From Ignavibacteriales bacterium (GTDB lineage: Bacteria; Bacteroidota; Ignavibacteria; Ignavibacteriales; Melioribacteraceae): a stretch of 64,000 nucleotides of DNA. Made by a program: the position numbers and the translations under genes. The notes beneath the pieces were generated by a model. The model was not told the DNA's origin, searched no databases, and saw nothing but the letters and a program-made list of their open reading frames with translations. The stretch covers positions 372,001 to 436,000 of the forward strand of contig JAPLFF010000007.1 in the NCBI GenBank assembly GCA_026390775.1, in the 5' to 3' direction. Below are positions 16,042 through 43,117 of the stretch, one piece after another (position 1 is the stretch's first letter; every line of letters begins with the position of its first letter).

Positions 16042-17079
16042 ATGAAGTTATCAGATTTCAAGTACAACTTACCAAAAACTGCGATCGCAAAGAATCCAGC
16101 TAATCCGCGCGATAAAGCAAGCATGATGGTTCTTAACCGTGCAACCGGTGAAATTGAACATCACAAATTTTCAGATCTTGTAAACTACATACAGAAAGGT
16201 GATGTAGTTGTTGTTAATCAAACAAAAGTTATGCAAGCCCGTTTGTTCGGAAAAAAAGAACGGACAAATGCTAAGATTGAAGTTTTCGTTCTTAGAGAAT
16301 TGAACAAGGAGGAAAACATTTGGGATGTAATTGTTGATCCTGCACGTAAAGTTAGAATCGGCAACAGAATTTATTTTAATGATAAACTCTGGTGTGAAGT
16401 AATTGATAATACAACATCCCGAGGAAGAACCGTCCGCTTTAATGAAGATGCCGGAGATATTTTTAAGGCGATTGAAAAGATCGGGCACACTCCTTTACCG
16501 CCTTACATTAAACGCGATGCAGTTCCATCGGATAAAGAACACTATCAGACAATATTTGCTCAAACAGATGGATCGGTTGCCGCTCCTACAGCCGGTCTGC
16601 ATTTTACTCCTGCTCTTGTTAAGAAAGTTGAAAAGATTGGCGCTAAGGTTGTCCCTGTTATTCTGCATATCGGTCTTGGTACTTTCCGTCCCGTTGAAGT
16701 AGAAGATCTAACAAAACATAGAATGGATTCTGAATATTTTGAAATCTCTGAAGAGACAACAAAAATTATTAATAAAGCTCTTGAAGATAAGAAAAATGTT
16801 TTTGTGATTGGAACAAGTACTTGCAGAGCACTTGAAAGCAGTGTTACAGCAGATGGATTTGCAAAACCAAATTCAGGATGGACTGATAAATTCATTTTTC
16901 CACCTTACGAATTTAGAGTGACAAAAAAATTGGTAACAAATTTTCATCAGCCGGAATCAACTTTAATGATGCTGGCTGCCGCATTTGCCGGTTATGATTT
17001 TATCATGAAAGCTTATAAGAAAGCATTAAAAGACGGCTATCGCTTCTTAAGTTATGGCGATGCAATGTTAATTGTCTAA
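16042..17079 (+). CDS. queA: S-adenosylmethionine:tRNA ribosyltransferase-isomerase
   Basis: Transfers and isomerises the ribosyl part of SAM onto 7-aminomethyl-deazaguanine in tRNA, giving epoxyqueuosine. Signatures: KLSDFKYNLPKTAIAKNPANPRDKASMMVLNR at the N-terminus, GDVVVVNQTKVMQARLFG, TPLPPYIKR, QTDGSVAAPTAGLHFT, LHIGLGTFRPV and a C-terminal NFHQPESTLMMLAAAFAG. Length 345 is normal. GAGGAG precedes the ATG. The stop TAA overlaps the ispD start (TAATG). Confidence 0.97.
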   Translation: MKLSDFKYNLPKTAIAKNPANPRDKASMMVLNRATGEIEHHKFSDLVNYIQKGDVVVVNQTKVMQARLFGKKERTNAKIEVFVLRELNKEENIWDVIVDPARKVRIGNRIYFNDKLWCEVIDNTTSRGRTVRFNEDAGDIFKAIEKIGHTPLPPYIKRDAVPSDKEHYQTIFAQTDGSVAAPTAGLHFTPALVKKVEKIGAKVVPVILHIGLGTFRPVEVEDLTKHRMDSEYFEISEETTKIINKALEDKKNVFVIGTSTCRALESSVTADGFAKPNSGWTDKFIFPPYEFRVTKKLVTNFHQPESTLMMLAAAFAGYDFIMKAYKKALKDGYRFLSYGDAMLIV

Positions 17080-17780
17080 TGAAAGTATTTGCAATAATTC
17101 CTTCGGGCGGCTCTGGTTTGCGAATGAATAATCCGCCCTGCCTGCCGGACAGGCAAGTTCCTAAGCAATATATCCGTATCAACGGAAAAGAAATTATTGC
17201 TTACACTTTAGAAGTCTTTCAAAAATGCGAATCGATTGATGAGATAATTATCTCTGCCTGCAAAGATTATTTTGATCTCCTTCGAACAATAAAAAACAAT
17301 TATTCATTCTCTAAGATCTCAAAAATTGTAGAAGGCGGAGATGAACGCCAGCATTCGGTTCTTAATGCATTAAAATCTACCAATGCAAAGGATAATGATT
17401 TAATAGTTGTACATGATGCTGTCCGTTCGCTACTTCCGAATGATATTCTTATCAAGTCAATAGAGACAGCAAAAATATCCGGAAGTGCTGTGGTTGCTAT
17501 CAAAGCGAAAGATACGCTGATCAAAGGAATGGATTCTGTTGTTTCATATATTGATCGGCAAGATGTTTATTATGCACAAACTCCGCAAGTATTCCAATAT
17601 AAAATTCTTTTGGATGCTATGAATCAAGCTGAAAAGGAAAATTTTATCGGAACGGATGAATCTATGCTTGTTCAACGTGCTGGTTATAAAGTAAAAATAG
17701 TTGAAGGTTCATCGCTGAATTTCAAAATCACGAATAAGGACGATATTAAACTTTTTGAATTAATCACCCGCACCAAATAA
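17079..17780 (+). CDS. ispD: 2-C-methyl-D-erythritol 4-phosphate cytidylyltransferase
   Basis: CTP-dependent step of the non-mevalonate isoprenoid pathway. Seen: IIPSGGSGLRM near the N-terminus (CTP loop), PKQYIRINGKEII, GGDERQHSVLNAL, VVHDAVRSLLP, KAKDTLIKG and YYAQTPQVFQY, all in family order. Between the RM and PKQ parts of the CTP-binding loop there are 11 residues where about 4 are usual; the extra part (around PPCLPDRQ) is encoded by a GC-rich palindrome, so this looks like an in-frame insertion. Translation is coupled to queA. If the loop tolerates it the enzyme is active. Confidence 0.93.
   Translation: MKVFAIIPSGGSGLRMNNPPCLPDRQVPKQYIRINGKEIIAYTLEVFQKCESIDEIIISACKDYFDLLRTIKNNYSFSKISKIVEGGDERQHSVLNALKSTNAKDNDLIVVHDAVRSLLPNDILIKSIETAKISGSAVVAIKAKDTLIKGMDSVVSYIDRQDVYYAQTPQVFQYKILLDAMNQAEKENFIGTDESMLVQRAGYKVKIVEGSSLNFKITNKDDIKLFELITRTK
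17139..17155. repeat. palindromic element inserted in frame in ispD
   Basis: TGCCTG-CCGGA-CAGGCA is a GC-rich hairpin that differs sharply in composition from its surroundings. It accounts for most of the seven extra residues seen in the CTP loop of IspD, so the insertion including flanks is about 21 bases and keeps the frame. Confidence 0.65.
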
Positions 17781-18105
17781 GAAATATTTTTCTCTTGACT
17801 TAAATTCATATTAACAATACCTTATTCAAGAAATTATTGGCTAATCTTTTCTGTTTCGATTTAATCTTCTTTCTGGGGTTAACTGATTAAAAATTGTGGC
17901 GGGAGTTTTTAATGAGCAATATTTTTTTCATAATTAATTTCTCCTTCGAAATTTAATAGGAAATATTTATATCCAAGCGCTTCATGCGTTATAGATATTT
18001 TTATTTTGTATAGCTCTGTGTGAGATATTTAAAATCTTAAAAATGACCAGCATGCTTTACAAAGCATATACAATGTGATTTAATAACTTTCGATGGGAGC
18101 GAAAA
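17781..18105. other. 325-base AT-rich intergenic region before the T9SS cargo genes
   Basis: No gene or tRNA is visible on either strand. A 7-bp inverted repeat ATGCTTT-AC-AAAGCAT lies at 18052-18067, and the palindrome AAGCGCTT is further upstream. TTATTTTG near 18002-18009 is one base away from the TAnnTTTG consensus. GGGAG at 18095-18099 is the ribosome site for the gene at 18106. The region presumably holds the promoter for the two secreted-protein genes. Confidence 0.4.
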
Positions 18106-19239
18106 ATGAAAAAATTATTATTTTTACTAATTTTATGTAATCTCATTAATGCGCAGCACATTAATAACCCGCTAATACTTGGAGAGCTACTCATTCATGT
18201 TTCAAATAATCCACAAAATGTGAGTCTAACTTTCCAGTCTGTAAAAATTCAAAATACTACACATTGGAATTTCCAAAACAATATTGTATGGAATTCAGAT
18301 TATACCGGACAAACGCAAACTGGTGTTACCACCAGTACATTTATGTACTGGAGAGATGGTTATCCAATTGGAATGGGTAAAGGTATTTATTATATTTATG
18401 CGGAAACAAGCGATAATACTATAAGGACTTATTTTATATATGATATTAGAACATCAAAAGATTGGGATCATCATATTAGTCCTGACCTACACGTGGTATA
18501 TAATTATGGACTAAACGAATTCTCTATTGAGTCTTCAGGGGAAGATATAACTGGATCCATAGTAAATGCATGGGATTATACACCAGGTTTAACGCCGACA
18601 CAAGAAACTGATAAATTTGAACCAAGACCGCCAACGAATCTTTCAGTATCTAACTTAGGTGGTCACCCGCTATTAGTATGGAATAATAATGAACTTGAAG
18701 ACTATTGGACAGCCGTAGAAGTTTATCGTGCTTTAACGTATTCGGGTCCACCAAGTAATTGGAATAGCATAGCTACCTTAAGCGCGGGCAGCACTTCTTA
18801 TTACGATACAAGATACACCGTAGGCCAAGGAGCGATTGCGTGGTATAAAGTTTGCAAAAGAAATGCGAATAAATTATCTCAATTTTCGAATGTAGTCAGT
18901 ATAAATATTATACCTCAATCAATAGCACAATTTAAACCGGTTGACGAAACAAACGCAACCTGCGAGAAAATTGAATTTGACAATTCTCTTTTTCAAAACT
19001 ATCCGAACCCTTTTAATCCATCAACAGAAATCAGTTTCAGCTTAAAGGAAGATAGTCATATTACTATCAAACTCTATGATGTCCTTGGAAAAGAATTATT
19101 AACTATAGCGAATGGTGATTATGCAAAAGGAATTCATAGGATTAATTTTAATGGTTCCTTTTTGTCATCCGGTGTTTATATTTATTGTATTAAGAGCCAA
19201 CTATTTACAACTTCAAAAAAATTAATAATATCTAAATGA
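18106..19239 (+). CDS. secreted protein with FN3-like domain and type IX sorting domain
   Basis: A signal peptide (residues 1 to about 17, ending INAQ) is followed by an unrecognised region of about 150 residues rich in Trp and Tyr, then a fibronectin-III-like domain (about 175-275, starting RPPTNLSVSNLGG). The last 80 residues are a type A T9SS sorting domain: LFQNYPNPFNPSTEISF, then KLYDVLGKEL and SSGVYIYCIK. Such proteins cross the outer membrane through the type IX system and are released or anchored at the surface. A similar cargo gene follows after 7 bases. The cargo function is unknown. Confidence 0.85.
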   Translation: MKKLLFLLILCNLINAQHINNPLILGELLIHVSNNPQNVSLTFQSVKIQNTTHWNFQNNIVWNSDYTGQTQTGVTTSTFMYWRDGYPIGMGKGIYYIYAETSDNTIRTYFIYDIRTSKDWDHHISPDLHVVYNYGLNEFSIESSGEDITGSIVNAWDYTPGLTPTQETDKFEPRPPTNLSVSNLGGHPLLVWNNNELEDYWTAVEVYRALTYSGPPSNWNSIATLSAGSTSYYDTRYTVGQGAIAWYKVCKRNANKLSQFSNVVSINIIPQSIAQFKPVDETNATCEKIEFDNSLFQNYPNPFNPSTEISFSLKEDSHITIKLYDVLGKELLTIANGDYAKGIHRINFNGSFLSSGVYIYCIKSQLFTTSKKLIISK

Positions 19240-19246
19240 GGTTGAT

Positions 19247-20869
19247 ATGAAAACAAAAATAATTTTAATTCTTTTTGTTTCCTGCCTTTATTCAATATCT
19301 GCTCAAAATATTACTTATAAACGTCTGGATATAAACAATATACATCTGTATCTGCAGAACATTGGAAATCTAAAATATGTAGATGGTGTTGGAGGCGGAT
19401 ATTGGAATTCATTACCAAGTGTAGAGCGTTGGGATTCGGTGATTGTATTTGATCAAGGTCCGTGGGTAATTGGCAAAATAAAAAACAAAGTATATGTTGG
19501 AATGGTACAATGGTGGGATGTCCCATCTTCAATTTTTTCACCCGGTCCCATAATTAACAACAAACCCGCTATGTATACCGCTCCTCAAGACTCAATGCGG
19601 TATAGATGCTACAAAATTTCAAGGGGAGATAATGCTAGTAATCCGGATTATAGTAACTGGCCTGTAGATTTTGGGGCGCCGGTTAATTCAAACGGCAGCC
19701 CTAAACTTTACGGCGACCAAACAATTTGGACTGTTTACAATGCATTGGATTCGACAAGGAGTTACCGGGAGTATTGGAACACACACTTGGATTCTTTACC
19801 CGTTATGCCTGTAGAAATACAACAAACAGTGTTCGCGAGAAAAGGAAATTTGAACGATGAAGCTGATATTTTTTCTAATATAGTTTTTGAAGAATGGACA
19901 ATCATCAACAAAGGAAATGAAACAATTGATTCCACTTATTTTTCTTTGTGGACAGATATTGATCTTTGGTTGAATTCAGCTTATAATATTCCGCAGGTAG
20001 ATACATCCCTTGGTTTAGGATATTTATGGTCTAATAATTCTCAGACTCCTCAATTGACAGCTGGCTATGCATTATTATACGGCCCGTCTGTTTCATCAAA
20101 CGGAGATCGTGCAGTTTATAAAGGAAGGTTGAAAAACAATTTTAAGAATCTTGATATGTCGTCTTTCCATTCAATATTTGGAGACGCTGCAGTTGGAAAT
20201 CTAGGCGAACCTGCTTTCACAAGACAAAAAGCTTGGAATATTGCCCGGGGTTATTATCCCGACGGCACGGTAAAAATTGATTCAACAACAGGAAAGAAAA
20301 CTAAATATACATTTTCCGGAGATCCGGTTACCAATTCAGGGTGGATTCGGAAGGAATACACAGGTGGCGGTGCTGGATTCAATATGTTCAGCGGCCCATT
20401 TACTTTGGCTCCTAACGACACACAATGGGTAATGGTTGCTTTAGTTCCAGCGCTCGGCAAAGATTATAAAGAAAGCATAACAAGATTACGAAAAAAAGTT
20501 GCACTGTTAAAATCTTTGCCTTATGATAGTCTTGCATTTGGTAAAACTCCTTTAGTTGTTGATGTAAAAGAGAATCAGGGTGTTATACCAAATTCTTTTA
20601 TGCTTTACCAGAATTACCCCAACCCATTTAATCCAAGTACAACAATAAAATATTCCATTCCTCATATAGGAACAGGACATGTTGTGCCCGCACAATTAAA
20701 AGTTTATGATGTATTAGGTCGTGAAGTTGCTATTCTTGTTAACGAAGAAAAATCTCCGGGTAATTATGAAGTGAAGTTTGACGGAACAAATATCTCGAGT
20801 GGAGTTTATTTTTATACACTGAGTGCAAACGGATTTTTCCAATCGAAAAAGATGCTGCTGATGAAATAA
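19247..20869 (+). CDS. secreted protein with type IX sorting domain, function unknown
   Basis: 540 residues with a signal peptide (1 to about 19, ending ISAQ). The body of about 420 residues is rich in Trp, Tyr, Gly and Asn (for example GGGYWNSLPSVERWD, SWTDIDLW-like repeats, TGGGAGFNMFSGPF) and matches no enzyme family I know. The C-terminal sorting domain begins LYQNYPNPFNPSTTIKYSIP and contains KVYDVLGREVAILVNEE and SSGVYFYTL. About ten extra residues (HIGTGHVVPAQ) lie between the first and second strands of this domain. GAGG precedes the ATG. Likely co-transcribed with the preceding cargo gene. Confidence 0.85.
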   Translation: MKTKIILILFVSCLYSISAQNITYKRLDINNIHLYLQNIGNLKYVDGVGGGYWNSLPSVERWDSVIVFDQGPWVIGKIKNKVYVGMVQWWDVPSSIFSPGPIINNKPAMYTAPQDSMRYRCYKISRGDNASNPDYSNWPVDFGAPVNSNGSPKLYGDQTIWTVYNALDSTRSYREYWNTHLDSLPVMPVEIQQTVFARKGNLNDEADIFSNIVFEEWTIINKGNETIDSTYFSLWTDIDLWLNSAYNIPQVDTSLGLGYLWSNNSQTPQLTAGYALLYGPSVSSNGDRAVYKGRLKNNFKNLDMSSFHSIFGDAAVGNLGEPAFTRQKAWNIARGYYPDGTVKIDSTTGKKTKYTFSGDPVTNSGWIRKEYTGGGAGFNMFSGPFTLAPNDTQWVMVALVPALGKDYKESITRLRKKVALLKSLPYDSLAFGKTPLVVDVKENQGVIPNSFMLYQNYPNPFNPSTTIKYSIPHIGTGHVVPAQLKVYDVLGREVAILVNEEKSPGNYEVKFDGTNISSGVYFYTLSANGFFQSKKMLLMK

Positions 20870-20897
20870 TCTATAATCAAGAAAAGTAAACCGACAG

Positions 20898-20922
20898 AAG
20901 ACGGCAATGACTAGCCGTCTTT
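20898..20922 (+). terminator. hairpin after the T9SS cargo genes, weak intrinsic terminator
   Basis: AAGACGGC (20898-20905) and GCCGTCTT (20914-20921) form an 8-bp stem with an 8-base loop 28 bases after the stop. Only three T residues follow, so it is a weak terminator by sequence. Confidence 0.5.
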
Positions 20923-20979
20923 GCTATTCAAACAAAATTTTTATAATCAATCACTTAAACATATTTGGAAATCTATTCC

Positions 20980-21010
20980 TTGTTTATAAAATACTTTTTC
21001 TCTAATTTTG
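20980..21010 (+). promoter_or_regulatory. Bacteroidetes-type promoter for plsY-gpsA
   Basis: TTG at 20980-20982, a 20-base spacer, and TAATTTTG at 21003-21010 match TTG-N20-TAnnTTTG exactly. A start near 21017 would leave about 16 bases before the plsY ATG. Confidence 0.6.
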
Positions 21011-41724: not shown

Positions 41725-43117
41725 TTAATAACTCTTTTCTAATTTTGCTGCAAACGAACCATCAAGTCCATGTAAGTGAGTTAAAGTTCTAACGCAGCCA
41801 TTTTCATCTATAAGCTCTGCTGAAAGCGCATTACCCGGATTAATCAACTTAAAGTTGGGAAAATCTAATAAGAATTTTTTTATGATTTCAAAATTCTCTT
41901 CTGGTTCAATAGTACATGTGCTATACACTATGAAACCGCCGTTACTTAATAATGATGCGCCCTTCTTCAGTAACTCGTATTGAATATTAACAATTTTTCT
42001 GATATCCCCCAAGTCCAATTTTTCTGATATCCCCCAAGTCCCTTTTCCATTTTAGATCTGGTTTTTTGGTCAATGTTCCCAATCCGGAACAAGGTACATC
42101 AACTAAAACTCTGTCAAATCCTTGCTCATCTTCGTATTCATTAGCATCAATAGTAATTGTTTTTACATTGGTTACTTTCAGTCTATCCAAATTTTTCTGT
42201 AATATTTTCAACCTGCTCTCAAATCTGTCTAAAGCAATTATTTCTCCGGAGTTTTGCATTACATCAGCAATGAAGGCCGTTTTTCCTCCGGGAGCGGCAC
42301 ATAAATCCAATACTCTCATTCCCGGTTTTACATCTAATAATTTAATCGGTAGTCCGGTGCTTTCATCTTGAACAGTAAAGTAACCTTTATGAAAATATTC
42401 CCAATCTGTAATATTTGAAAGAACGTTAAGACGAATAAATTCCGGCAAAAATTTTCCATTTGTAAATTTCAGATCTACACTGTTTAGTAAAGAATTCATT
42501 TCTTCATAATTGGAAACTAATCCATTAACACGAATTGTTAGTATAGGTTTATTGTTATTCGAAATTAACAGCTTCTCTGTTTCATCCTTTCCGTATCTGG
42601 TGATCCATCTTTTAACCATCCAACTAGGATGAGAATAATAAGCGCTGAAGTAGGCAATGATATCCTCGTTAGGATCCGGATAACGAATTGAATCTTTGCT
42701 TCGAATGATATTTCTTAATACACCATTTGTTATATCGGCAGGCTTTTGTCCTTGAAGTTTTTTAACAAACTCAACGGCTTCGTTAACGGCAGCATATTCC
42801 GGAACCTTGTCAAGAAACAAAATTTGATACAAGGCTACTCGCATAGCATTCTTAACATTAGGAATACATTTTGAAAATTGTCCTTTATAAAAACCATTAA
42901 GTATCCAATCGATTCTACCAAGCCAGCGAGTTACACCATGCACTATTTCGAAGAGTAATGATTTATCGAGTCCCGAAAGGTTGGAATTTTTTAACTCTAT
43001 ATCGAGGAGTTTATCTAGATAAGCATCTGTTCTATCAATGCGGTTTAAGATTTTTACAGCATGCCCTCTTACGCCTTGATAAAGATTGAGTTCAAATGAA
43101 TCGTTATTCTGTTCCAT
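41725..43117 (-). pseudogene. rsmB: 16S rRNA m5C967 methyltransferase RsmB, frameshifted by a 25-bp tandem duplication
   Basis: The first part (from ATG 43117) has the NusB-like N-terminal domain and the SAM fold with LDLCAAPGGKTAFIAD and DVPCSGLGTL (motif IV Cys). After KWKRDLGDIRKI it runs into a duplicated 25-base block, reads GLGGYQKNC and stops at 41987. The rest (VNIQYELLKKGASLL, YSTCTIEPEEN with the motif VI Cys) continues in another frame to 41725. Removing one copy restores a single 455-residue RsmB. As written the product lacks motif VI and should be inactive. I prefer ATG 43117 over the ATG at 43192, which lies inside the rpmE terminator. Confidence 0.88.
41991..42040. repeat. exact 25-bp tandem direct repeat in rsmB
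   Basis: Positions 41991-42015 and 42016-42040 are identical (unit begins CAATTTTTCTGATAT and ends CCCAAGTC). The unit length is not a multiple of three, so it shifts the frame. The exact identity says the duplication is recent, or it could be a slippage or assembly error. Confidence 0.95.

Follow-up and report, generated by a model that had tools for sequence, protein, structure and literature searches.

The rsmB gene of this Ignavibacteriales draft genome is, as assembled, interrupted by an exact 25-bp tandem duplication that is private to it. The event is an ordinary one-off: either the assembly was joined wrongly or the gene has very recently undergone a loss-of-function mutation, and there is no sign of a genetic switch. 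We give about an even chance to the duplication having been made in assembly, in which case it is no working genetic device and the rsmB of the organism is normal and single-copy. On evidence that is circumstantial and in part noticed post hoc, this reading is slightly likelier than a real mutation.

The duplication and its effect on rsmB

The window (the whole stretch of DNA analysed, 64,000 nucleotides) carries rsmB on its minus strand, where NCBIfam and Pfam matches identify it as encoding RsmB, the 16S rRNA m5C967 methyltransferase. The relevant features are as follows.

41991..42015, minus strand: the 25-bp unit GACTTGGGGGATATCAGAAAAATTG, in the copy that is transcribed second
42016..42040, minus strand: the copy of the unit that is transcribed first; exact identity with the congeners G011, G005 and G003 starts at its 5' edge
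41987..43117, minus strand: rsmB 5' piece of 376 aa, with NusB-like, ferredoxin-like and Rossmann-fold parts and motif IV (DVPCSG); 349.6 bits against NF011494
41725..42018, minus strand: rsmB 3' piece, read in the shifted frame over 97 codons that start at a TTG, with motif VI (YSTCT)

The two identical adjacent 25-mers of the original prediction are indeed present: the unit CAATTTTTCTGATATCCCCCAAGTC lies twice head to tail at 41991-42015 and 42016-42040, the copies are 100% identical, and the repeat match extends a single base past the unit, to 42041, giving a junction microhomology of 1 nt. Each copy contains one GGGGG and one AAAAA run. The 25 bp, a length not divisible by three, shift the frame between motif IV and motif VI, and the minus-strand open reading frames bear out the earlier claim that the shift sets the two motifs apart. 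The 5' piece starts at a conserved ATG (43117; an alternative, longer form with a TTG start would have 401 aa) and ends at a TAA (41987-41989) just past the junction. The first reading frame thus stops at 41987, and the cysteines of motifs IV and VI do not fall within one polypeptide.

The motif VI cysteine is the nucleophile in the RsmB family. If the duplication is real, the 5' piece would therefore be inactive, having lost that motif. On its own the 5' piece exceeds the equivalog cut-off of 319 bits for NF011494, and the 3' piece covers the rest of that model (349-443); on the full-length protein of relatives the two align to residues 1-368 and 356-455, respectively. The domain composition is that of RsmB (Fmu/Sun; E. 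coli structures 1SQF and 1SQG, with 1sqf the best solved relative), the first piece supplying the DxPCSG of motif IV and the second the STCT of motif VI, but in contrast to known RsmB the frame is broken between the two cysteine motifs and no complete enzyme is encoded as written.

A survey for exact tandem duplications combined the window with sampled stretches, together 1.35 Mb or 45% of the 3.01 Mb genome, and the rsmB case was the sole exact tandem duplication of at least 13 bp. A chance origin can be dismissed because no other exceeds 12 bp in that sample. The earlier part of the sampling contained three out-of-frame 10-bp tandem duplications; two fall within long open frames or on their border, and the third is in no such frame. 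In 1.27 Mb from relatives, a single locus had an exact tandem duplication of at least 15 bp, an in-frame 42-bp array. The unit has no match elsewhere with up to five mismatches in the 951 kb of the genome scanned, and a search of IMG/VR retrieved no independent copies of the duplication site.

rsmB in related genomes

Intact, full-length rsmB is present in all 11 congeners found, at 81-97% identity. The nearest relative, G008 (94.8% nucleotide identity), has an unbroken reading frame whose protein is 97% identical over residues 1-455. In the order as a whole, 141 of 146 genomes have an rsmB match, as do 107 of the 108 good genomes; a few of the genes are truncated, several of them at contig edges, and only that of the source genome is split at the duplication site. 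A separate case is G093 (G093:C69:7236-8426), whose match is shortened (9-406) and interrupted by two stops, possibly another broken or misassembled rsmB.

About 100 homologous stretches span the site, a count that includes some genomes two times, with separate locus numbers, and two stretches ending at a contig end on the site, and all are single-copy without a gap. The same two copies in relatives, which the original prediction gave as a refuting finding, were thus absent throughout (about 100 loci, 146 genomes, all of other species). Being private to the source genome, the duplication must postdate the split from G008, whether it is a cellular event or a computational one. On the source-genome branch since that split, 25 synonymous and 8 non-synonymous changes lie before the junction, and no changes can be assigned to the 97 codons past it. 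Neither piece of rsmB has any sequence decay; the gene worked until very recently, if it does not work still.

Assembly context of the site

The source genome is a draft of 8 contigs. The duplication site is the part of rsmB with the most exact k-mers in common with 15 related genomes, reaching 12/15 at k=17, 7/15 at k=21 and 6/15 at k=25, against maxima elsewhere in the gene of 7/15, 5/15 and 4/15. Unbroken identity with three congeners, G011 (71 nt), G005 (50 nt) and G003 (38 nt), sets in exactly at the 5' edge of the unit, the base before that edge being G in the source genome and A in G005; by estimate, such a coincidence of edges may occur at random in about 10-20% of cases. Contigs of two unrelated MAGs also end at the unit edges, L091 (DAIERC010000145.1) exactly at the 5' edge and L045 (JAGVBL010000344.1) 2 nt short of the 3' edge, a coincidence spotted post hoc. 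The shared k-mer peak and these contig ends mark the site as one where assembly graphs branch or break.

Elsewhere in the draft, a near-perfect tandem repeat of about 500 bp (L138 3327-4360, G000:C8) encloses a 34-N gap, the only N gap in the sampled genome. Another contig, G000:C5 (L197), ends inside 16S, past two tRNA-like sequences in the 16S-23S spacer, and the assembly lacks the greater part of 16S despite a listed completeness of 99.94%.

Two other assembly faults were considered and rejected. A general homopolymer-error problem does not fit, as the approximately 57 kb aligned to G005 contained no further net frame-breaking indel inside a gene, only a few single-base differences at gene ends. 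Nor does a chimeric join of two strains, as identity to four congeners has no step at the site.

Explanations for the duplication

An assembly error could have arisen where two pieces, of contig or of graph, had a 25-base overlap in sequence common to related species; if these were joined with the overlap written twice, an apparent tandem duplication in rsmB would result. The shared k-mer hub, the breaks of other assemblies at its edges and the breaking of this draft at conserved sequence are observed, while the overlap-doubling join itself is what we infer from them. A metagenome graph is expected to branch at conserved sequence, and a doubled-overlap join gives exactly the picture seen. Our lean towards this reading comes from the k-mer peak, the coincidence at the 5' edge, the MAG contig ends, and the draft state of the genome, which has an N gap and a contig ending inside 16S. 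False duplications at draft contig joins are similar in being exact short-overlap copies, at a graph node common to related genomes in a MAG-like draft, but differ in that the rsmB case is single in 1.35 Mb and has no N run at the site. The absence of a second example in 45% of the genome means that the pipeline rarely made such errors; the clean alignment to G005 and the unchanged relatedness across the site also count against one. To our knowledge, 25 is not a default k of common metagenome assemblers, and a de Bruijn graph would require reads bearing the junction unless the error arose at a join. The edge coincidence, finally, may be chance, and the contig ends were not sought beforehand.

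Only a little less credible, though still a tentative reading, is a real and very recent 25-bp tandem duplication, produced by replication slippage or template switching, through which the sequenced strain or population carries an rsmB null. Truncated RsmB, without the motif VI cysteine, would then be unable to methylate C967, and RecA-independent slippage between the copies could restore the gene, incidentally and not as a regulated switch. The copies are perfect and private to this genome, both pieces are otherwise intact and under constraint, and the surroundings are of high quality. E. coli without rsmB is viable with mild defects, among them accumulation of 17S precursor and a slight effect on reporter expression (PMC7056703), while loss of RsmB/RsmD leads to cold sensitivity and looser initiation fidelity (PMC7949028), so that a null would be viable but not neutral. 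Yet rsmB is kept nearly universally in the order, which makes a null unexpected as the assembled allele, and the constraint on the source-genome branch also favours an artefact. The 1-nt microhomology is below what slippage or microhomology-mediated duplication normally uses, the latter typically having several nucleotides at the edges. No stable hairpin able to provoke slippage is found at the site (DNA fold z-score +1.33), which moreover coincides with the assembly-break features. The original prediction, a recent null or an artefact, stands in that both fit the privacy, the perfect copies and the lack of decay; its suggestion that the gene can revert as a switch is unsupported.

That switch would turn 16S m5C967 on and off through slippage-driven gain and loss of one copy, polymorphic in the population and selected, and we regard it as very improbable. 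Precise deletion could plausibly act on two perfect tandem copies, and the idea is not absurd, since reversible tandem duplications creating a premature stop occur in ssp1 of fission yeast (PMC13207564). These microhomology-mediated duplications resemble the rsmB case in being short, exact and intragenic, with a premature stop and reversibility in principle, but the latter has 1-nt microhomology and no mixed alleles seen, is bacterial and may not be real. Similarly, phase-variable simple-sequence-repeat contingency loci share the setting of frame by the copy number of a tandem unit, but here there are two copies rather than a hypermutable array, in one genome, and copy number does not vary among the relatives, which are of other species and single-copy throughout. 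rsmB is also a single-copy housekeeping gene whose loss has no known advantage, and the C967 context of its target is conserved in relatives. A literature search found no tandem-duplication switch in bacteria or in rsmB.

Retained function despite the duplication is scarcely less improbable. The G5 or A5 run within each copy might allow transcriptional slippage or a frameshift that restores the frame, or reinitiation at the TTG (42018) might yield a split protein, the downstream reading frame overlapping the upstream one. However, the relatives have no frameshift at the site, so nothing there has been selected for frameshifting, and no signature of a programmed frameshift appears in about 100 of their stretches. 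The spacing between the RsmB motifs is invariant in all relatives, from which an in-frame insertion of eight residues through slippage would probably disturb the enzyme. No Shine-Dalgarno-like sequence was found upstream of the TTG.

Two routes to compensation for rsmB loss were also considered. A second RsmB/F-family protein (C7:716606) is RsmF-like and found in nearly all relatives, so that no replacement has been gained here. Loss of the target base is not indicated either: the 16S of relatives carries TGCAACGCG with C967 retained, the corresponding part of the source genome's own 16S being missing from the assembly, where a search for the h31 segment, with a positive control, also failed to find it.

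A real duplication would add one more to the private loss-of-function alleles of dispensable rRNA methyltransferases. An artefactual one would be a caution against giving biological meaning to a single frameshift that a draft genome has at sequence common to related species. Switching of rRNA methylation by copy number would be of consequence if true, but nothing supports it.

Other features of the window

The ispD gene (17079-17780, plus strand) has a 21-bp in-frame, partly palindromic insertion at 17137-17158, approximately CCTGCCTGCCGGACAGGCAAG and encoding approximately PCLPDRQ, in the N-terminal part of IspD; it is absent from the congener G005. Similar CCTGCC...GGCAGG palindromes occur in the genome at L125, L158, L160, L161, L170 and L176, and the insertion resembles a mobile repeat, small and palindromic, that gets into coding sequence as well. 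Downstream, a region of about 3.2 kb (~17780-20980) encodes two secreted-looking proteins (18106-19239 and 19247-20869), each with a C-terminal sorting-like domain, and the syntenic place in G005 is without them.
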